Source: Candidatus Zixiibacteriota bacterium (GTDB taxonomy: Bacteria; Zixibacteria; MSB-5A5; UM-FILTER-46-8). From it: 49,116 nucleotides of DNA. Numbering within the stretch: position 1 is the stretch's first letter; each line of letters starts with the position of its first letter. The notes under the pieces were generated by a model, which was not told where the DNA came from, did no database searches, and was given only the letters and a program-made list of their open reading frames with translations. Location of the stretch: assembly GCA_014730345.1 (NCBI GenBank), contig WJIJ01000016.1, positions 1-49,116 of the forward strand, written 5' to 3'. Shown here in pieces: positions 9,071 to 21,633 of the stretch. A program made the translations under genes and the position numbers.

Positions 9071-9604
9071 ATGCTGAAAAAATCACTTATTTTTACAGCT
9101 ATTGCGTTCATCTTTCTTTCCGCGGTCTTAGCGCAAGCCGCCGATAAGAAAGCGTTTGATTTCACCCTTAATAATTTAAAGAATCAAAAAGTAAGTCTTG
9201 ATGATTTACTCGGAAAGGGTCCTGTTTACCTGGCTTTTTGGGCAACATGGTGCAAACCATGCGTTAAGGAGCTTGAAATCGTTACTAAAATTCACCAGGA
9301 CTACAAGGACCGGGGCTTTCAACTCGTGGGAATAAACGAGGACTCCGGCCGCTCCCACAGCAAGGTCAAATCCTTTGTAAAATCAAAGGGATGGGATTTC
9401 CCGGTTTTGATGGACAATAATGAAAAAGTGAAAAGAGATTATAAAGCTTTCGGATTGCCATATTCGGTCATTCTCGACTCCGAAGGCTATATTATACATA
9501 CAGCTTATGGTTTCCGTCCCGGTGATGAAGCCAAAGTCAAAAAGATAATTGAAGAGCATCTTTTGACACAGGAGGCTGATTCTACCGAAAGCGAGGCGAA
9601 TTAA
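9071..9604 (+). CDS. TlpA/ResA-like secreted thiol-disulfide oxidoreductase
   Basis: Signal peptide; FWATWCKPCVKELEI (WCxPC) and FGLPYSVILDSEG (cis-Pro loop). Confidence 0.92.
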   Translation: MLKKSLIFTAIAFIFLSAVLAQAADKKAFDFTLNNLKNQKVSLDDLLGKGPVYLAFWATWCKPCVKELEIVTKIHQDYKDRGFQLVGINEDSGRSHSKVKSFVKSKGWDFPVLMDNNEKVKRDYKAFGLPYSVILDSEGYIIHTAYGFRPGDEAKVKKIIEEHLLTQEADSTESEAN

Positions 9605-9634
9605 TTTTTAACAGCTAAGGATTGGGACGGAAAG

Positions 9635-11137
9635 ATGAAAAAAACATCTATATTTCTACTGATTTTAGGAGCAGTTATTTTCAACATCTCGATAGCGACA
9701 GCAGACGACGTAACTATCCAGGCTCATAACAAACTGGAATACTACTGGGAGCGGGAACCCGATTCTATGGGTGTTCACAGCGACAGCCTGCGCAACAAAC
9801 TGGTTGTGGATTTACTGTACGGCGATTTCTATGCCGGAGTATGGTTTGAAGCGTATCACCCGCTGGCTACTCCGAATGCGGTTCCTTCGGATACTTCTTA
9901 CGAGGGTATCACCCAGAGGTATTTTGGCTGGAGGCATGACAACGCCGAGATAAGGCTGGGTAATTACTATGCTAACTTCAATCGAGGCATGATATTACGC
10001 GCGTACGAGGCCGAGGATATTCAGGTTGATAAGAATATCTACGGCGCATGGGGTTCTTACAGCGGCCGGTTCTACAACTTCGAACTATTGTCCGGCAAGA
10101 TCCTGCTCGCTGATAACCAGGCAATTACCCCGCTAATACGCCATCGCAGGAACACAGTTACCGGCGCGCGCGCGGAGCTGACCCCAATCTATAATTTCAG
10201 GGTTGGAGCCGGCGCTGTTCGTTATGAAGAAAAAGATCCATTCATCGACGAAACTTATTATACCAACGCCTGGGAAATTATCGGCGGATTTAACTATGGT
10301 ATTTTCGATTTCTACGGCAACTATGCCCGCCAAAACGGCACCAGAGGGTTTTCGTTGGGAAGGTTCGACCTCGAGGAAGGCGACGGAACCTATCTTACCG
10401 CCGGAATCTCAACTTCCCTGATCGGGATTGCCGCTGAGTATAAGAACTATTATAACCTCGGTATGGCTTTTAACGCTCCCCCGGCCGCCAATCACCGTAA
10501 TCAATCTCCAAACACGGTCAGCGGCGGCTTGAACGGCGCTAACGACCGCGGTTTCCAGATATCGACATTTCTTTCTCCATTCGATAACTGGACTTTCCAG
10601 GCCGATGTAGCTCAGTCTCAGGAAAGGCCGGATCCTGAAACCGGACACGCCCGGGCGATTCTCTACAATAATTTTTATGAGGTCCGCGGCTATATCGGGC
10701 GCCACAATGTTATTCTAAACTACGAACGCACTGATATGGGCTTTGAAGGACTGGAACACCTCCCTTATGGGGAAATTACGTATTATCTGAATGATAGATC
10801 GACGGTTACCGCTACCGGGCAGGTGAGAAAATATGAAAACCAGAGGAAGTCCAAGGGCAAGGATGATTGGAACGAGATCGATTACTCGGTTACTTTGAAT
10901 TACTCTTATTCGTTATCTATCACCGTATCCGGAGGTTTTACCTCAGAGGAATTTACCCAGTTCGATGACCCGTTCCCATCAAGAAGTGGAGCGGTTTCGG
11001 TGAATATACGTTACGGTGAACATGATTTGAATATTTTTTACGGCGATCAGCGCGGCGGTTTCGTATGTACAGAAGGAGCCTGCCGGGAAGTTCCTCCTTT
11101 CAGGGGAATGAAAATGATCCTGGTATCGAGGTTTTAA
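9635..11137 (+). CDS. predicted outer-membrane beta-barrel protein
   Basis: Signal peptide; alternating amphipathic strands rich in Tyr/Phe throughout; terminal Phe (ILVSRF). Lies directly between thioredoxin-family genes. Confidence 0.65.
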   Translation: MKKTSIFLLILGAVIFNISIATADDVTIQAHNKLEYYWEREPDSMGVHSDSLRNKLVVDLLYGDFYAGVWFEAYHPLATPNAVPSDTSYEGITQRYFGWRHDNAEIRLGNYYANFNRGMILRAYEAEDIQVDKNIYGAWGSYSGRFYNFELLSGKILLADNQAITPLIRHRRNTVTGARAELTPIYNFRVGAGAVRYEEKDPFIDETYYTNAWEIIGGFNYGIFDFYGNYARQNGTRGFSLGRFDLEEGDGTYLTAGISTSLIGIAAEYKNYYNLGMAFNAPPAANHRNQSPNTVSGGLNGANDRGFQISTFLSPFDNWTFQADVAQSQERPDPETGHARAILYNNFYEVRGYIGRHNVILNYERTDMGFEGLEHLPYGEITYYLNDRSTVTATGQVRKYENQRKSKGKDDWNEIDYSVTLNYSYSLSITVSGGFTSEEFTQFDDPFPSRSGAVSVNIRYGEHDLNIFYGDQRGGFVCTEGACREVPPFRGMKMILVSRF

Positions 11138-11204: not shown

Positions 11205-12242
11205 ATGAAGAAAACCGCGATATGCTTTGTTCTGGCTTTCCTGGTTCTAACAGTTAGCGCTTCGGCGGCCTGGAGGATGGTCCTCGGTGAAAATTTCACT
11301 AACACCAGTTGCGGACCGTGCTTCTATGCCGACCCGACCTTGAACTACCTTGCCGAAGAATTTTCGGAAGAGATTTCATTAATCCGTTACCATGGATGGT
11401 GGCCCGGAAGCGACGACCCCTTTTACAATCATAATATCCCGGAAAATACCGCGCGGATTAATTATTATGGGGTCAATTCCGTACCCGATTTCCAGATTGA
11501 CGGAATAATCGACGCCGGTTATCAATACCAGCAGTATGAAAACAGGTTTTTACAGCGGCTCGATGAAGAAAGTCCCTGCACCATTACCATAACCGGTAAT
11601 TACGAGAGCGGTACCCGTGAAGTTCACCTCGAGATTTCGGTTTATGCCGAAGAAGCCGTTCCCGGCAGTTCCCTGAGATTATTCTGTGTATTGATTGAGA
11701 ATTATATATCTTATAACGCTCCCAACGGGGTATTGGAACACAATCAGACCATGCGCGATATGGTCCCCTCATCTAATGGCGAAACATTTACAATCAGCCA
11801 GGGAGAGACGGTAGATTTCGCCCGCGATTTCACGATTGATAATATTGTCGATGAAATGAACGCGCAGGTTGTTGTTTTCGTGCAGGATTACAGCACCAAG
11901 GAAGTCCACCAGACCGCGAGGGTAGATGTTACCGACATGCCGACCGGTATAAATGATTTCCCCCAGGGTGAAATACCGAGAGTGGTTAAGCTGGCCCAGA
12001 ATTACCCCAATCCGTTCAACGCCACTACTAACATCGCCTTTGCTCTTAAAAGCGATACCGATGTGAACCTTTCGGTTTATAATATTGCCGGGCAGAAAGT
12101 TGCCGAATTGGCGGATGGATTTTTCGAAGCCGGAAATCACGTTGTAAACTGGGATGCTTCGGAAGTTTCCTCCGGGGTTTACTTCTATCGCCTGGAAACA
12201 AATGATGAGGTCAAAGCCCGTAAGATGATATTAATGAAGTAA
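11205..12242 (+). CDS. secreted thioredoxin-fold (Omp28-like) protein with C-terminal sorting-type domain; Cys (CGPC) paralog
   Basis: ORF track begins at 11187, but ATG at 11205 follows tggaggaaaaagtc and begins the signal peptide MKKTAICFVLAFLVLTVSASA. GENFTNTSCGPC redox motif; SVPDFQIDG cis-Pro-like loop; C-terminal NYPNPFNATTNIAF...SSGVYFYRLETND..KARKMILMK (FlgD-Ig/T9SS type A-like tail). Confidence 0.88.
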   Translation: MKKTAICFVLAFLVLTVSASAAWRMVLGENFTNTSCGPCFYADPTLNYLAEEFSEEISLIRYHGWWPGSDDPFYNHNIPENTARINYYGVNSVPDFQIDGIIDAGYQYQQYENRFLQRLDEESPCTITITGNYESGTREVHLEISVYAEEAVPGSSLRLFCVLIENYISYNAPNGVLEHNQTMRDMVPSSNGETFTISQGETVDFARDFTIDNIVDEMNAQVVVFVQDYSTKEVHQTARVDVTDMPTGINDFPQGEIPRVVKLAQNYPNPFNATTNIAFALKSDTDVNLSVYNIAGQKVAELADGFFEAGNHVVNWDASEVSSGVYFYRLETNDEVKARKMILMK

Positions 12243-12328: not shown

Positions 12329-13336
12329 ATGAAAAAAGCGTTATTGTTGACTGTATTGGCATTGTTCGCTCTCGTTCCCGCCGCCCGGACAGCTGACAGG
12401 CTTGTCCTGATTGAAGGGCAAACCGGCACCTGGTGAGGCAGTTGCCCCATGGCCGAAAGAGCTCTCGACCAATTGGTCGAAGAATTCGGGGACGAGATCG
12501 CCGTGATAACATGGCACATCGGAAACAATGATCCCTTCTATCTCTATGATACCCAAACCGCCTGGGCTCGTTTTGATTATTATCCGGGCAATTATGTCCC
12601 CCATGGATTTATCGATGGTATAATAGACGGGGAGCATTTGTACAACTCTTGGCGCAGTATATATTTAAGCAGGAAAGAAGACGACAGCCCATTGATATTC
12701 ACCGTTGACGGCAATTATAACCCTGTTAATAGAGAAGTAAACCTCGATGTCGATATCGAAGCCGTCAGTCCGGTCGATTTTGATGACCTTAGGCTGTTTT
12801 GTGTCCTGATCGAAAATGAATTAGATTATCACGCGAGAACCTATAATTTCGTTATGCGCACCGCGGTTCCGGATGTTTACGGCGAGCAATTCGATATATC
12901 CGAGGGCGAAACATTGAACTTCCTCCGCCAATGGAATATCGATGAGGAGCTCGTTGCTGAAAATTCGGAGATCGTTCTTTTCGTGCAGGATTATACAACC
13001 AGGGAAATACTCCAATCTTATAAAATGACTGTCGCGGGAATGACTGGTATAGATGACAATCCCGAACTGCCGGTATCGACCGCGCTATTGAGGAATTATC
13101 CCAATCCGTTCAACGCCTCCACCAACATCAACTTCAAGCTCGAAGCTGAAACCGATGTAAACCTTTCTGTGTATAATATTGCCGGGCAGAAAGTCGCCGA
13201 ACTGGTTAATGGCAAGATGGATGCTGGTGAACATGTTATCAACTGGGATGCTTCCGATATGGCTTCCGGGATTTACTTCTATACCCTGAAGACCAATAAC
13301 GCTTTGGAAACAAAACGGATGTCGTTGGTTAAATAG
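12329..13336 (+). CDS. predicted selenoprotein: secreted thioredoxin-fold (Omp28-like) protein, redox motif W-U-G-S-C-P, Sec at codon 36 (TGA 12434-12436)
   Basis: ATG at 12329 after aggag; MKKALLLTVLALFALVPAARTADRLVLIEGQTGTW-U-GSCPMAERALDQLVEEFGDEIAVITWH. Frame is continuous with ORF-track 12449..13336. YVPHGFIDG cis-Pro-like loop and NYPNPFNASTNINF tail shared with paralogs. Confidence 0.88.
12465..12480 (+). promoter_or_regulatory. SECIS-like hairpin 1
   Basis: TCGACC-AATT-GGTCGA at +29 to +44 after the TGA; perfect 6-bp stem. Loop lacks G, unlike the other two copies. Confidence 0.7.
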
Positions 13337-13457: not shown

Positions 13458-14495
13458 ATGAAAAAGGCGCTGATTACGCTTATCATACTGCTTTACGCGG
13501 TGTTGGCATCTTCGCTTTCATACGGAGTAACCCGTGTGGTTATCGGGGAGTATTTCACAAATACCGGGTGAGGGTCCTGCGGCATACCCGACCAGCTACT
13601 CGTTCAGTTGAGCGACCAGTACCCCGATGAATTCGCGTTCATCCAGTATCATACTAATTTCCCGGATATTAATGACCCATTTTATCTCTTTAATTCCCAG
13701 GAAGTAAATGCCCGGCGTACATTCTATACTAACGGGTACGTCCCGCAATTTTATGTCGATGCCTACGATGCCGGTTCCGGTTATCAAAATTGGGAAAATA
13801 TCCTGCTTGTCCGGTATAACCAGCCTTCCGATTGGGAGATTATGACCGATGGTTCATATAATGAAACCACCCGGGAAGCATTTTTAAATATTGATGTCTT
13901 TCTTTATGGCGACGACCCTGATGGTGTTGAGTATCTCAGGATTGCCTTGGTCGAAAACGACATTTATTATCCGGGTTCCAATGGCACCGACTACCATCAG
14001 CAGACATTCCGGGATATGATACCCGATGTTACCGGGCAGGTTATAGAGGTTGACGATACCGGAATCTGGGAAGGTTCTGTACAATTTACCGTAGATGAAG
14101 TAATTGCCGAGCAGAATTGCGAAATTGTGGTTTTTATCCAATCCTCGGTGCAGAAAGAAGTCCTTCAGGGTTACAAAATGCCTTTCGATGATCTCGGTCC
14201 TGTTTCAGTTGACGATGATGAACCCCGCCCCCAATCCTTCCGTTTGCTGGGCAATTATCCTAATCCCTTTAACTCATCGACGAATATACGATATATCCTC
14301 GATGAAAATGCCGATGTTCGCATAGATGTTTTCAATATCCGCGGAGAATATGTTGCCACGCCGGTTAACGAATTCCAGCAGAAGGGCTTGCATAGCGCGC
14401 GCTGGGACGCGTCCTCCATTCCATCGGGAATCTATTTCTATACCCTCAAAGCCGGAATGAATTCCGCTACCAAACGGATGACATTGGTTAAATAG
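13458..14495 (+). CDS. predicted selenoprotein: secreted thioredoxin-fold protein, redox motif G-U-G-S-C-G, Sec at codon 38 (TGA 13569-13571)
   Basis: MKKALITLIILLYAVLASSLSYGVTRVVIGEYFTNTG-U-GSCGIPDQLLVQLSDQYPDEFAFIQYH; FTNTx(C/U) aligned with the Cys paralog; continuous with ORF-track 13608..14495; YVPQFYVDA loop and NYPNPFNSSTNIRY tail. Confidence 0.9.
13600..13615 (+). promoter_or_regulatory. SECIS-like hairpin 2
   Basis: TCGTTC-AGTT-GAGCGA at +29 to +44 after the TGA; 6 bp including one U-G; GU in the apical loop. Confidence 0.8.
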
Positions 14496-14636: not shown

Positions 14637-15677
14637 ATGAAACAAGCGCTTTCGATGATTCTCACCCTTGCTTTAATGTTCGTATTCGCAAACGGCGCAT
14701 TTGGCGTTGAACGGGTAGTAGTGGGCGAGCTTTTCACTAACACCTCGTGACCGAGTTGCGGCCCGGCAGAGATCCGGCTCGATCAGTTGATCGAACAGTA
14801 TGAAGAAGAAATCGCCGTTATCCAATACCATGTATGGTGGCCCAGTTCAGGCGATCCTTTCTATCAATTCAACATTGAAGAAAACACAAATCGAAACAAC
14901 TTTTACGCTAACAACTATACGCCCCATTTCTTCGTTGATGGGGATGACGCTGGTTCTTCTTACAACAGTTGGGAATCCATCCTGATGAGCCATTATAATG
15001 AGCCGTCCGACTGGGAAGTTGAGGTAACCGGCACCTATGATGAAGACACCCGGATGGTGCATCTGGACATCGCTGTGACGCTTCATGGAGAAGACCCCGC
15101 CGGAGTTGAGTTTTTACGGGCGGCGGTTTGCGAAAGCGATATCTACTACCAGGCACCCAATGGGAATAACACTCATAACCAGACTTTCCGGGATATGATA
15201 CCTGACATCTATGGTTTACGGATTGAACCCGACAGCAATGGTTACTGGGAAGGAACAATCGATTTCGAACTTCACGATGAAGTTTTATCCGAGAATTCTA
15301 ATATAGTATTTTACATACAATCGACCCGCGAACGCCAGATTTTCCAGGGTCACAAAATATACTTTGATGAACTCGGTCCCGTTTCGGTGGATGAGAACGG
15401 CAGTTCTACTCCCGAAAATTATGCCTTAATAGGAAATTACCCCAATCCCTTCAACGCGTCGACTAACATTAGCTATACACTCGCGGATGAAAGTGTCGTT
15501 AAACTGGATATATACAACCTTCGCGGAGAACATGTAGAGACACTAATCGATGGTATTCAACAGCCGGGAATCCAGGATGTAAACTGGAATGCCCATGATA
15601 TGCCCTCGGGGATATATTTTTACCGTTTGAATCTGAACGGCGAAAGTTTCACTAAGACCATGACCTTGTTGAAGTAG
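14637..15677 (+). CDS. predicted selenoprotein: secreted thioredoxin-fold protein, redox motif S-U-P-S-C-G, Sec at codon 38 (TGA 14748-14750)
   Basis: ATG after tggaggaaaggt; MKQALSMILTLALMFVFANGAFGVERVVVGELFTNTS-U-PSCGPAEIRLDQLIEQYEEEIAVIQYH; continuous with ORF-track 14787..15677; YTPHFFVDG loop and NYPNPFNASTNISY tail. Confidence 0.9.
14779..14794 (+). promoter_or_regulatory. SECIS-like hairpin 3
   Basis: TCGATC-AGTT-GATCGA at +29 to +44 after the TGA; perfect 6-bp stem; GU in the apical loop. Confidence 0.82.
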
Positions 15678-15759: not shown

Positions 15760-18700
15760 TCAAGCAACCTTCTTTCTCTCCATTATGTAATAAAGCGCTG
15801 GTACGATTATCAACGTCAATACCGTTGATGATATCAAGCCGCCTATCATCGGAGCGGCTATCCTCTGCATTACTTCCGAACCGGTTCCATGACCGAGCAT
15901 TATCGGAAGCAACGCGATAATTGTGGTGGTTACGGTCATCAATTTCGGTCGCACCCTGTCCACGGCTCCTTCGATAATCGCCGATTTAAGCTGGGAAGCG
16001 GTTTTCAATTTTCCCTCTTTGCGATACCGGTTTACCGCTTCCTCCAGGTAGACCAGCATCACCACCCCGGTCTCCGCCGCTAATCCGGCCAGGGCGATGA
16101 AACCCACGTAAACGGCTACCGATGTATTGTAACCAAAAAGGTAGAAAAGCCATATACCGCCGACCAGCGCGAAGGGCAGGGACAGCATCACTATAAGGCT
16201 GTTGGCGAAACTCTTGAAATGAAGATATAGCAGGAGGAATATGACCAATACGGTCAGTGGCACGATTATCCGCAGGCGTTCGGCGACCTCCATCATGTTT
16301 TCGTATTGACCGGACCACACAATCGAATAACCGGGCGGCAATGTGATATCCTCGGATACTATCTCCCGGGCGTTATTAACATAAGTTCCCACATCTATAT
16401 TATTCAAATCGACATACACCCACGCAGTAGGGCGGGAGTTTTCCGATTTTATCATCACCGCCCCCTTGCTGAATTTCAAATCTGCCACCTGCCCCAGGGG
16501 AACCGGCTTGCCTTGCTGATTATAGACAAGTACCCTTTTTATGGCATCCGGGTTATCCCTTAGTTCCCGTGGGTAGCGTACGTTTATCGGGTAGCGCTCA
16601 AGTCCTTCAATAGTACGGCCGATATTCATCCCCCCGATTGCCGATTTTATCGTGTTCTGTATATCCTCTACTCTTAACCCGTATCCCGCCGCCCGGCGCC
16701 TGTCGATCTCTATATCGAGGTAATTCCCCCCGGTTACCCTTTCGGCGTAAACCGAACGTACTCCCTCGGTCTTTTTGATAACGACTTCGATTCTCCGCGC
16801 GATTGCATTCAGGCTGTCCAGGTCCGGTCCCATTATCTTAATTCCCACCGGAGTTTTAATGCCGGTGGATAACATATCGATACGGGTTTTTATGGGCATG
16901 GTCCAGGCGTTGGTTAATCCCGGGAATTGGATGGCCCGGTCCAGTGAATCAACCAGCATCTCCGGGGTCATCCCATCCCTCCATTGGTCCTCCGGTTTTA
17001 GCATTATAGTGGTTTCAATCATGGTCAGCGGCGCGGGGTCGGTCGCAGTTTCCGCTCTGCCGATCTTGCCGAAAACCCGTTCCACCTCGGGAAAAGAAGC
17101 GATAATCTTGTCAGTCTGTTGTAGAAGTTGCTTCGCCCTGGTAATTGAAATTCCCGGTAATGTGGTGGGCATGTACAGCAAATCGCCCTCGTAAAGCGGG
17201 GGCATGAATTCAGAACCGATACGCGACAGCGGTATCACGGTCAACGCCATTATCACCAGCGCGATAGTGATCACCAGTATCCTCCTGCGGAGTACGAAAT
17301 CTATAACCGGCCGGTATAACCTGATGCTAAATCTCGATATGGGATTATTCGATTCTGATATTACCTTCCCCCTGATAAAAATGAAAATCAATGCCGGGAT
17401 AACCGTAACCGAAATCAGCGCCGACGCGGCCATGGCAAACGTCTTCGTATATGCCAGCGGTTTGAAGAGCCGTCCCGATTGCCCCTGCAGGGCAAGTATC
17501 GGCAGGAAGGAGATAGTGATAATTAGCAGGGAGAAGAACAAAGCCGGTCCGACTTCTTTGGCCGAATCTATAATGATCTCCCTGCGGTTTTTCTTTCCGG
17601 CGTCCCTTTCAAGGTGTTTATGAGCATTTTCCACCATGACCACCGCCGCGTCGACCATAACCCCGATAGCGATGGCGATTCCTCCCAAAGACATTATATT
17701 GGCGTTTATCCCCAGCGCGTGCATCAGCAGAATAGAAACAAGAACTCCCGCGGGCAGGGTAACCGCGGCCACCAGAGTAGAGCGGACATGGAACAGGAAA
17801 AGCAGAGTAATCAGGAAAACAACCACTATTTCCTTAAGTAGTGTATCGCGTAAATTATCCACCGCCCTGTCGATTAATCCCGAACGGTCATAAACGGTTA
17901 CAATGTCCACACCTTCGGGAAGCCCCGGCTTGAGTTCCTCGATGCGCTCCTTTACCCGGGAGATAACTTCACGGGCATTTTCGCCCCATCGGATGACCGC
18001 GATGCCTCCCACTACCTCACCTTTACCATCGAGTTCAGCAACTCCTCTCCTGATTTCAGGTCCGTACTGCACATCCGCTACCGATGAGAGCAGGACAGGC
18101 GCGCCGTCATCGGGAGTATGAACCGGAATATTACGCAAATCATCAAGGGCTCCGATATAGGCGATAGAACGCACCATGAATTCTGTCTCACCCAGTTCGA
18201 TTAGTTTACCGCCGGCGGCGCTGTTCGATTTTTTTACCGACTGGATTACATGGGATAAGGGAATATTGTAATAATCCAGCTTGCGGGGATCGACCTCGAT
18301 TTGATATTGGCGCACGAATCCGCCCACCGAGGCGACTTCCGATACGCCTTTTACAGCCGATAACTCGTATTTCAAGAACCAATCCTGTATTGAGCGTAAT
18401 TCGGCAAGGTCGTTTTTGCCGGTTGTGTCCACCAAAGCATATTGATAGACCCAGCCCACACCTGTAGCATCCGGCCCGAGCCGGGGAGTTATCCCTTCGG
18501 GCATCCTGCCGGAAATGGCGCTTAAACTTTCCAGCACCCTGCTTCGCGCCCAATAGATATCGGTGCCGTCCTCAAATATTACGTAGACGAAGGACAGACC
18601 GAAATATGAGAATCCACGTACAGATTCCGCTTTCGGAACCGCCAGCATCGCTGTCGACAGGGGATAGGTTACCTGGTCTTCTACTATCCGGGGCGGTTGT

Positions 18701-18867
18701 CCCGGATAATCAGTCTGGATAATTATCTGAACATCAGATAAATCAGGGATAGCGTCAACGGCGATCTCGTTGGAGGCATATACCCCGAGTATTAGTATAA
18801 TCGCCGTTACCGACAGAATCAACCATCGATGGTTTACCGAGTACTCAATTATTTTATTTATCATCAC
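15760..18867 (-). CDS. cusA: CusA/CzcA-type heavy-metal efflux RND transporter
   Basis: Full-length HME-RND: DAIPDLSDVQIIIQTDYPGQPPRIVEDQVTYPL, GVMVDAAVVMVENAHKHLER, GSEFMPPLYEGDLLYMPTTLPG, AAETGVVMLVYLEEAV. Confidence 0.95.
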   Translation of the reverse strand: MMINKIIEYSVNHRWLILSVTAIILILGVYASNEIAVDAIPDLSDVQIIIQTDYPGQPPRIVEDQVTYPLSTAMLAVPKAESVRGFSYFGLSFVYVIFEDGTDIYWARSRVLESLSAISGRMPEGITPRLGPDATGVGWVYQYALVDTTGKNDLAELRSIQDWFLKYELSAVKGVSEVASVGGFVRQYQIEVDPRKLDYYNIPLSHVIQSVKKSNSAAGGKLIELGETEFMVRSIAYIGALDDLRNIPVHTPDDGAPVLLSSVADVQYGPEIRRGVAELDGKGEVVGGIAVIRWGENAREVISRVKERIEELKPGLPEGVDIVTVYDRSGLIDRAVDNLRDTLLKEIVVVFLITLLFLFHVRSTLVAAVTLPAGVLVSILLMHALGINANIMSLGGIAIAIGVMVDAAVVMVENAHKHLERDAGKKNRREIIIDSAKEVGPALFFSLLIITISFLPILALQGQSGRLFKPLAYTKTFAMAASALISVTVIPALIFIFIRGKVISESNNPISRFSIRLYRPVIDFVLRRRILVITIALVIMALTVIPLSRIGSEFMPPLYEGDLLYMPTTLPGISITRAKQLLQQTDKIIASFPEVERVFGKIGRAETATDPAPLTMIETTIMLKPEDQWRDGMTPEMLVDSLDRAIQFPGLTNAWTMPIKTRIDMLSTGIKTPVGIKIMGPDLDSLNAIARRIEVVIKKTEGVRSVYAERVTGGNYLDIEIDRRRAAGYGLRVEDIQNTIKSAIGGMNIGRTIEGLERYPINVRYPRELRDNPDAIKRVLVYNQQGKPVPLGQVADLKFSKGAVMIKSENSRPTAWVYVDLNNIDVGTYVNNAREIVSEDITLPPGYSIVWSGQYENMMEVAERLRIIVPLTVLVIFLLLYLHFKSFANSLIVMLSLPFALVGGIWLFYLFGYNTSVAVYVGFIALAGLAAETGVVMLVYLEEAVNRYRKEGKLKTASQLKSAIIEGAVDRVRPKLMTVTTTIIALLPIMLGHGTGSEVMQRIAAPMIGGLISSTVLTLIIVPALYYIMERKKVA

Positions 18868-20344
18868 CGCCCCCTTCGTATTTTACCAGGAACATACCGC
18901 AGTCAGGGCACCGGCCTTCCTCATCGGATATAGTTTCGCATACAGCCATGGGGCAATGATAGAATCCTTTGTTATTGGTGTGTTCCACCGGGATTAAGTC
19001 CATACCGCATTCTTCACATTTCCCTTCACCGTATTGCAGGATATGGTAATGCTCGGGCATGGGGCAGGTGTAAATGCCGGTAAGGTCTTCTCCCGCGTGT
19101 TCATCGGAGGGGTCATAAACTCGAGAATTGTTTTCCAGGGATTCACTCAGGCGTGATTCGGAGTCGAGAAGGAATTGCCCGGAGGTAACCACGCGTTCGC
19201 CCCGGGTTAAACCATCGAGTATCTCAACATAATCATCATCGCCCACGGCTCCAGTTTTTACCGCGCGCGCCTGATACGCTCCTTCGCCCGCTTCGACATA
19301 TACCAGCCTACGGGTACCGCTGTTGATAACCGCTTTCAAAGGTATGGACAGTTGATTCGAGCGTTCGGTTGAATTTACATTTATCTCTGCGTACATATCC
19401 GGCTTCAGTTTCAGTCCGCGGTTGGGAATATTTACTCGAATCTCTATTTGACCTTTGTTATTTAAAAATGGCGAGATGTATGTTATTTCCCCTTTATACA
19501 ATTCACCCGGCAGGTTGGGAACGCGGACTTCCGCCATCTGTCCTTCTTCCAGGAAGGGGAAGTCTTGTTCATAGACATATCCGACAGCCCATACTTCGGA
19601 AACATCCGCTATCCGGTATATACTTTTGCCTTCCATGATGTGGTCGCCGGAATTGATTTTTTTCTCAATTACGATCCCGTTGACAGGTGAACGGATGACC
19701 ATATTCCGCGTTATTTCCCCGTTGGTTTCAAGAGCTTTTAGCTGGTCTTCGGAGATATCCCAATTCTTTAATCGTGCCAGGGAAGCTTCAACCAGTTCGC
19801 CGGGATCGAAATTGCCACCGGTACCAACAGTTTTCAAGTTGGCGCTGTTTTTTAATGCCGATAGATATTCACGTTGGGCCGCTACCAGTTCCGGAGAATA
19901 AAGTTCAAGCAACGCCTGTCCTTTCGATACACGCGCGCCGGTGTAATCAATGTATAGCTTTTCGGCCCAGCCGGAAGTTTTAAGGTTCACAGTTTTAACC
20001 ATCGGTTCAGCATATTCAATTTTGCCGAATGCCCTGATAGTTTTGGTGATGATTCGGGATTGCGCGGTTTCGGTTGTCAGGCCGATATTATGAGTAGTAA
20101 CCGGATCAATAGTAATCGATGAGCCGTTGCCGCCGGCTCCATCTTTTTTAGGCGTTAGTTTCATACCGCACAACGGGCAGTAGCCCGGTTCTTCGCTGAT
20201 AATCTCAGGGTGCATTCCGCAGGTGTATAATTGGGTATTATCTGAAACAGCCTTCGCGGCATTATTAGAACCTGACACGAAGATAAAGTACCCCGCTCCG
20301 AATCCGATTATAAGTGATATTGTTATTATAATTATATTTTTCAT
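18854..20344 (-). CDS. cusB: CusB-type membrane fusion protein with three heavy-metal-binding-domain motifs
   Basis: YTCGMHPEIISEEPGYCPLCGMKLTP at the N-terminus; RND adaptor core; C-terminal YTCPMPEHYHILQYGEGKCEECGMDLIP and FYHCPMAVCETISDEEGRCPDCGMFLV. Confidence 0.92.
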   Translation of the reverse strand: MKNIIIITISLIIGFGAGYFIFVSGSNNAAKAVSDNTQLYTCGMHPEIISEEPGYCPLCGMKLTPKKDGAGGNGSSITIDPVTTHNIGLTTETAQSRIITKTIRAFGKIEYAEPMVKTVNLKTSGWAEKLYIDYTGARVSKGQALLELYSPELVAAQREYLSALKNSANLKTVGTGGNFDPGELVEASLARLKNWDISEDQLKALETNGEITRNMVIRSPVNGIVIEKKINSGDHIMEGKSIYRIADVSEVWAVGYVYEQDFPFLEEGQMAEVRVPNLPGELYKGEITYISPFLNNKGQIEIRVNIPNRGLKLKPDMYAEINVNSTERSNQLSIPLKAVINSGTRRLVYVEAGEGAYQARAVKTGAVGDDDYVEILDGLTRGERVVTSGQFLLDSESRLSESLENNSRVYDPSDEHAGEDLTGIYTCPMPEHYHILQYGEGKCEECGMDLIPVEHTNNKGFYHCPMAVCETISDEEGRCPDCGMFLVKYEGGGDDK

Positions 20345-21633
20345 TGTATCGCCTCCATTTTAGCTCCGGTTAATTCATCGATATCAGCCAGGGCGGAGTT
20401 ATATTCCATCAACAGTTTGAGCCGTTCCAGTTCAAATTCCATCAACCTTGTTTGAGCCATAATACGGTTTAAAAAATCGGTCTTTCCCACGCGGTAGGCA
20501 ATATCCGATGACTCCAGCGCCGCCTTCGCCAGAGGTATTATCGAATCCTCGTACAGCTTTATGCTCTCCGCCTTTCTATCAATTTCCAATAATGTGTTTT
20601 CAATTTCGTTTTTAATGAATAGCTCGATCGAGTATCGTTCGCTTTCGCTGGTAGAGCGCATCGCCGATGCTTCATCCACTTTATGGTTCTGTTTGAACCC
20701 GAACCATAACGGGATAGAAAAACCGACCTTCGCCGATACAAAATCCTCTCCCGGCAAGGCGTCCATAGCCACTTCCTCCCGGATCCGGTACTCGAATCCC
20801 AGGAAGATATCCGGCATATATTCCGCCTTCGCCAGCGATTCGCGTTTCTCGCTTATCGCGATATTGCTCTCAGCGGATTTTATCAGGGGATTATTCTCCA
20901 TAGCCAGCGCTATCAGCGGATCAATCGCTATAGGTTGCCGTAGGACACCCGGCAAATCTCCTTTCAGGTCATCGATTTCTTCCGGGATTCCAGTCAACCG
21001 ACGCAAATCGGAAAGGGCCGATTTGGTCATCCTGACAGCTTCGCGTTCTCTATCCTCCAGTTTCACCAGTGATGTTTGGGCATTTAAAACATCCTGGGCT
21101 AATCCATCGCCGTTGGCGTAGCGGGTCTGGGCAACTTCAACCAGAGCTTCTGTCAAATCGGTATATCGGTCAAGAATGCTGTCCGCCAGTTTCCAATAAG
21201 AGTAGTTATAATAAACCTGTTTTATCTTCATCTCGGTCTCATTGGCGATTAACTCCTTATTAAACCCGGCTTTTTCAGCGTCTAAATTAGCTATTGAACT
21301 GAGATTGCCGAGTTTCGAAAACCAGGGTATCTTCTGGGTTATGCCGATTGCTATACCTGTCATGGGAGTTTCATCCAGCGCCAATGAACTGCGAGGCAAG
21401 TTGGACGCCGCAATCGATAAAACAGGATCCGGCAGGGCCCCCGCGTATTTGGATTTGTAATTTTTCGCCCGATATGCATAATCGGCGCCCTGTATTCCCG
21501 GATTATTTATCATAGCCCTCTCAATCAAACTATCGAGTTCTGAATCCCGTTTTGGGGCGTTTTGGGCAATGATGATATCCGGTATAAACAGGGCAATTAC
21601 AACCATTATCCAGTAAATGGTCGATTTTAACAT
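20341..21633 (-). CDS. cusC: CusC/TolC-type outer membrane efflux protein
   Basis: Signal peptide; TolC-like coiled-coil repeats; ATGA overlap with the membrane fusion protein gene. Confidence 0.88.
   Translation of the reverse strand: MLKSTIYWIMVVIALFIPDIIIAQNAPKRDSELDSLIERAMINNPGIQGADYAYRAKNYKSKYAGALPDPVLSIAASNLPRSSLALDETPMTGIAIGITQKIPWFSKLGNLSSIANLDAEKAGFNKELIANETEMKIKQVYYNYSYWKLADSILDRYTDLTEALVEVAQTRYANGDGLAQDVLNAQTSLVKLEDREREAVRMTKSALSDLRRLTGIPEEIDDLKGDLPGVLRQPIAIDPLIALAMENNPLIKSAESNIAISEKRESLAKAEYMPDIFLGFEYRIREEVAMDALPGEDFVSAKVGFSIPLWFGFKQNHKVDEASAMRSTSESERYSIELFIKNEIENTLLEIDRKAESIKLYEDSIIPLAKAALESSDIAYRVGKTDFLNRIMAQTRLMEFELERLKLLMEYNSALADIDELTGAKMEAIQ

Follow-up and report, generated by a model that had tools for sequence, protein, structure and literature searches.

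Do three adjacent genes of a Zixibacteria genome, each with one in-frame TGA, encode selenoproteins, and does the RNA hairpin that follows the TGA belong to the codon or to the protein family? The question arises from four tandem paralogs in the window, by which we mean the whole 49,116-nucleotide stretch of DNA that was analysed; the genome that carries it comprises 3.58 Mb (G000:C44). The first paralog has a cysteine (Cys) codon, and the three copies that follow have the TGA (Table 1). Insertion of selenocysteine (Sec) under the direction of a SECIS element is textbook knowledge. We conclude from computational evidence, with a probability of about 0.93, that all three TGA genes code for selenoproteins, with UGA read as Sec through a bacterial SECIS (bSECIS) hairpin, and that the products are exported, Omp28-related UxxC/CxxC proteins.

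Gene cluster and encoded proteins

Each of the four copies has a start resembling a signal peptide, a domain of the Omp28 or DUF1223 type, and a sorting tail at the C-terminus. The gathering score of Omp28 (PF11551; 34.9) is exceeded by three of the four, whereas TGA copy 3 scores 31.7, below that cut-off, and matches DUF1223. In the alignment, each TGA falls opposite Cys36 of the Cys copy, and read-through yields full-length proteins with the same domains. We infer that the products are probably thiol/selenol redox proteins partnered with the TlpA-like protein that is encoded upstream. Weak sequence matches, together with what PMC2398784 describes for GOS_C, hint at a relationship to thioredoxins. 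A structure predicted with AlphaFold for one TGA copy from the single sequence without an alignment was unusable (pLDDT 33.6).

The neighbourhood of the cluster has several further features. The genes for the TlpA-like and DUF6029 proteins are found upstream of the Omp28 cluster in three genera (window positions 9071-11137; L052; L062), and the C-terminus of the DUF6029 protein has a conserved CTEG[AT]C motif. On the other side, the cluster is adjoined by an RND efflux set on the minus strand (ACR_tran, HlyD with heavy-metal binding domains, and OEP; 15760-21633). Four small ORFs in succession (306-1875; 117-136 aa) resemble a tandem secreted-protein family.

Table 1. Features of the paralog cluster and its upstream neighbours (window positions).
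Feature	Position	Strand	Description
TlpA-like thioredoxin (CKPC)	9071..9604	+	upstream neighbour, kept in two further genera
DUF6029 protein	9635..11137	+	kept upstream neighbour; C-terminal CTEGAC motif
Cys paralog (TSCGPC)	11205..12242	+	345 aa; Omp28-like, with a signal peptide-like start and a sorting tail at the C-terminus
TGC codon of Cys copy	11310..11312	+	aligns with TGA of the three neighbours
Hairpin-equivalent register in Cys copy	11340..11357	+	no stem; 3/7 pairs of the class-2 register formed; -0.4 kcal/mol
TGA copy 1 (TWUGSC)	12329..13336	+	335 aa with TGA read through
In-frame TGA, copy 1	12434..12436	+	
Copy 1 hairpin UCGACC-AAUU-GGUCGA	12465..12480	+	6 bp; loop atypical, lacking the usual G
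TGA copy 2 (TGUGSC)	13458..14495	+	345 aa
In-frame TGA, copy 2	13569..13571	+	
Copy 2 hairpin UCGUUC-AGUU-GAGCGA	13600..13615	+	satisfies the published bSECIS model
TGA copy 3 (TSUPSC)	14637..15677	+	346 aa
In-frame TGA, copy 3	14748..14750	+	
Copy 3 hairpin UCGAUC-AGUU-GAUCGA	14779..14794	+	-7.1 kcal/mol vs the model's -7.5

Absence of the hairpin in the Cys copy

In the initial annotation, the Cys paralog was described as having no hairpin at the offset equivalent to that of the TGA copies. We find the same: positions 11341-11356 (tgaactaccttgccga), which lie +29 to +44 after the codon, form no stem. When 28-nt windows were folded, the Cys copy reached -0.4 kcal/mol, compared to -9.8, -8.7 and -7.1 kcal/mol for the TGA copies, each of which has a stem of 6 bp. 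With the protein fixed and synonymous codons drawn at random, an equally good stem at the register arose with p = 0.03, 0.005 and 0.05 for the three TGA copies, so that each hairpin taken singly is only modestly unusual. Dinucleotide-shuffle z-scores of 50-nt windows are weak for each copy (-1.5, -0.5 and -0.15), the signal of the hairpin being diluted by weak structure on its flanks, and they were superseded by the synonymous-codon nulls and by register-specific counts.

The annotation further took the Cys paralog as a built-in negative control. This is fair in the sense that the copy represents the family without TGA; however, a single neighbour (n = 1) is insufficient, and this one is no recent revertant. 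Two other clusters (G121 and G123) share the order TlpA-like thioredoxin, DUF6029 protein, Cys copy and TGA copies, and the Cys copies of the window, G121 and G123 clusters group together in the tree. Thus, the Cys copy of the window represents a stable Cys lineage inside a Sec cluster. It contains no SECIS remnant.

Association of stem and codon across the family

Using a sequence profile and reading through stops, we searched 134 genomes from the phylum Zixibacteria and found relatives in 21 of them. Strong matches were taken, and the codon at the site was read in 70 members, 43 with TGA and 27 with TGC or TGT. An uninterrupted stem of 6 bp or more whose loop lies 19-38 nt past the codon, a criterion that was set after first looks at the sequences, occurs in 34/43 of the TGA members and 2/27 of the Cys members (p = 2e-9, Fisher test). 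The published bSECIS model (PMC13188914), whose constraints, unlike the 6-bp criterion, come from the literature, asks for a loop of 3-9 nt, a G among the first two loop nucleotides, a UGA-to-loop distance of 16-37 nt, and MFE <= -7.5. It is satisfied by 37/43 TGA members, with six failing, compared to 2/27 Cys members (p = 3e-11). Of the three TGA copies in the window, copy 2 alone passes strictly. The mean folding energy from +10 to +51 is -12.0 kcal/mol for the TGA set vs -6.4 kcal/mol for the Cys set. A wider set of 80 homologs, nearly all from other phyla and mostly from Bacteroidota, has stems in 8/80 and folds at -6.3 kcal/mol at a G+C equal to that of the TGA set; its members are all Cys, with a bias towards Cys since one search pattern demanded a Cys codon, and three of them overlap Zixibacterial loci that were already counted.

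Folding the equivalent windows of all family members and comparing the Cys and Sec sets had been proposed in the initial annotation, and across the 70 relatives the stem goes with the TGA set. The claim that the stem tracks with the TGA codon rather than with the protein family is thus supported. Stems in many Cys homologs, named there as the contrary case, were not seen: their frequency both within the phylum and in the wider set is about the chance rate. It is because of this family-wide comparison, and not of the window copies alone, that the association amounts to more than chance.

Could the stem simply follow the protein sequence, with the codons of an LDQL-type motif being palindromic by accident and the Cys members differing at that place? 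Random synonymous codons indeed give more stems for the TGA proteins (11.4 +/- 2.9 of 43) than for the Cys proteins (2.7/27), but the 34 stems observed lie beyond the maximum of 19 in 300 randomisations, and a raised expectation is what selection on the hairpin would itself leave. Furthermore, the LDQL residues also occur in Cys members (G115:C198:1394 and G116:C1:313138), which lack such a stem because they use other codons, and compensatory stem changes exist. We therefore consider it very improbable that the protein sequence accounts for the stem.

The hairpins fall into three classes, and since these were defined after inspection, class-specific counts lean towards structure. Class 1 (20 members) is of the GCUGAUCU-GGUC type with a stem from +16. 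Class 2, to which all three TGA copies of the window belong, is CUCGAUC-AGUU-GAUCGAG with a stem from +28 (12 labelled members and one reassigned by eye). Class 3 (seven members, genome family f14) has the form GCGGCAGUUGCUGC with a stem from +14/15. Pair counts reveal compensatory stem changes in each of the three classes, and most pair measures drop when the partner strand is slid. The codons of the class-1 hairpin are 100% identical where the residue is the same, compared to 35% in Cys members. A 39-nt class-1 pattern with at most three mismatches matched 9/134 genomes, mostly in known members and once in a frame-broken copy of G117, whereas the reversed control matched none.

The window's own genome contains another TGA member (L098; G000:C68:7506-8159). 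Its hairpin (CCGC-GGAC-GCGG) is different and shorter; with -8.2 kcal/mol, it satisfies the bSECIS model.

We also observed a preference for G directly 5' of the UGA, which in the window concerns positions 12433, 13568 and 14747. With Trp codons excluded, G precedes the codon in 25/33 TGA members vs 2/22 Cys members (p = 1e-6, kinship ignored). Serine before UGA is encoded by TCG in 19/20 cases vs 17% in gene bodies, again with kinship ignored. In SelD, GGG stands before UGA in 12/20 cases vs 22% (p = 3e-4), a count that likewise ignores kinship.

Interchange of Sec and Cys

When the hairpin columns were removed from the alignment before tree building, the state changed between Sec and Cys at least nine times on supported branches and 14 times on the best tree. 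Among independent pairs, 6.2 had the stem following the codon, 0.1 had the opposite pattern and 2.7 showed no difference (median p = 0.03). A tree with outgroups gave a similar picture with an uncertain root, and the direction of the Sec/Cys changes is therefore not settled.

One Cys gene (G112:C94; L074) is placed beside a class-1 Sec group; it keeps 6/7 class-1 stem pairs and has lost the GGUC loop. Sequence identity to the consensus of class 1 gives p = 0.04, uncorrected and for one among several Cys members looked at. The gene possibly carries a decayed SECIS, and it is a better candidate for reversion than the Cys copy of the window. Another Cys gene with a stem at +28 (G114:C41) was rejected as a decayed SECIS: its loop is not of the SECIS type and its relatives use the other register, so that chance is likelier.

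Sec machinery and SelD as a control

The genome of the window encodes a complete Sec system, with a tRNA-Sec (70.8 bits, anticodon TCA), adjacent selA and selB genes, and selD on the same contig. This selD in turn contains a Sec codon (SCAGUAS), followed by the stem UUUCCAG-GGUC-CUGGAAA with its loop at +33; this hairpin is of the same kind as those of the TGA copies and lies at almost the same distance. Across the phylum, 26 of the 30 TGA-containing SelD genes that were read have the stem, and the SelD loop of G121 is AGUU, like that of window copies. No Cys SelD bearing this motif turned up for comparison, and SelD therefore serves as a positive control only. A recoding function of the hairpin, as suggested in the initial annotation, gains support from the complete machinery and from the SelD hairpin of the same genome.

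SelB scores over the cut-off in 119/134 Zixibacteria genomes and SelD contains TGA in most, so nearly the whole phylum appears to use Sec. Because 119/134 genomes have SelB, its presence cannot discriminate across the phylum. In one genome (G108), selD (2462807) and selB (2465324) are followed after a few kb, on the same strand, by four TGA copies of class 3 (L094, C1:2469422-2473314).

In the mechanism that we propose, the stem-loop about 28 nt past the UGA, a bSECIS element within the coding sequence, would recruit SelB with Sec-tRNA-Sec, and the UGA would then be read as Sec. The binding of SelB to the hairpin and the presence of Sec in the protein are thus predicted. The Cys copy would be decoded at its TGC in the ordinary way, and it would have no hairpin because TGC needs no SelB. 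The products would be exported, thioredoxin-like proteins related to Omp28, with a UxxC or CxxC motif and a sorting tail at the C-terminus.

A different role of the hairpin, for example as an attenuator or a processing site that coincides with the TGA copies, might be considered since its role in SelB binding is predicted and an Rfam scan of the array gave no relevant match. However, the distance to the UGA is fixed within each class, the loops are of SECIS type (GGUC, AGUU), and the genome's own SelD, a canonical selenoprotein, has the same type of hairpin, which makes another RNA signal highly improbable. That the TGAs are premature stops, arisen in pseudogenes or through sequencing errors, is hardly credible: a few TGA family members with broken frames occur in other genomes (L057, G122:C80:6881-7551; L078, G117:C1:2410678-2411350) and are pseudogenes or assembly errors, but the 43 members from many genera have a single TGA at one aligned codon with the frame otherwise open, and three TGA genes share one cluster. 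A genome-wide code change to Trp, Gly or another residue is just as implausible, as TGA is the stop of 5/39 window genes, homologs have Cys at the aligned position, and a complete Sec system is encoded.

Going beyond Sec insertion at the three UGAs, we tentatively suggest, with considerable doubt, that the SelB of Zixibacteria recognises two or more kinds of loop (GGUC and AGUU/AAUU), placed at two or three set distances, plus a G directly 5' of the UGA. This would imply a looser register and an upstream element that is undescribed in bacteria. On the same reading, Sec-to-Cys reversion with SECIS decay would be frequent in the family.

Comparison with known systems

Our analysis extends the Omp28-related selenoproteins to many Zixibacteria genomes. 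What is new is a large Zixibacterial branch that mixes Sec and Cys copies and has three hairpin types, with a preference for G before the UGA and possibly a decayed SECIS in one Cys gene. With at least nine interchanges of Sec and Cys, and with copies often side by side in a cluster, the family is a natural experiment in which gain and loss of SECIS can be traced against the codon. The set of hairpins, together with the SelD control, could help to define recognition by Zixibacterial SelB. In addition, gene callers that treat UGA as a stop would truncate such genes.

The hairpins resemble bSECIS elements of the E. coli fdhF type (consensus in PMC13188914) in being stem-loops within the coding sequence, in spacing, in loop size and, for most members, in the G of the loop; the class-1 loop GGUC fits. 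They differ in having three registers within one protein family and, in the window, by the loop AGUU of copies 2 and 3 and the loop AAUU of copy 1, which has no G.

Remnant SECIS elements in Cys homologs have been described for the FdhA of M. succiniciproducens and a HesB-like protein of D. hafniense, and changes from Sec to Cys were found mostly in FdhA and SelD (PMC1794560). Like these remnants, G112:C94 keeps most stem pairs; unlike them, it belongs to an Omp28-type family, and the evidence for it is modest.

Among annotated protein families, the closest counterpart is NCBIfam NF045500, 'Omp28-related selenoprotein', which corresponds to GOS_C of PMC2398784 according to Table 1 of PMC13188914. 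The window copies share with it the relationship to Omp28, the UxxC motif and the existence of both Sec and Cys homologs, and a thioredoxin-like fold is reported for NF045500/GOS_C. They score 33-75 bits, whereas the curated cut-off is 200 bits; all members tested fall far below it, and none of the 134 genomes of the phylum has a match above it. We considered a wholly new family and rejected this, as the NCBIfam scan matches the NF045500 kind. The Zixibacterial genes are a new, divergent branch of the known Omp28-related selenoprotein kind.
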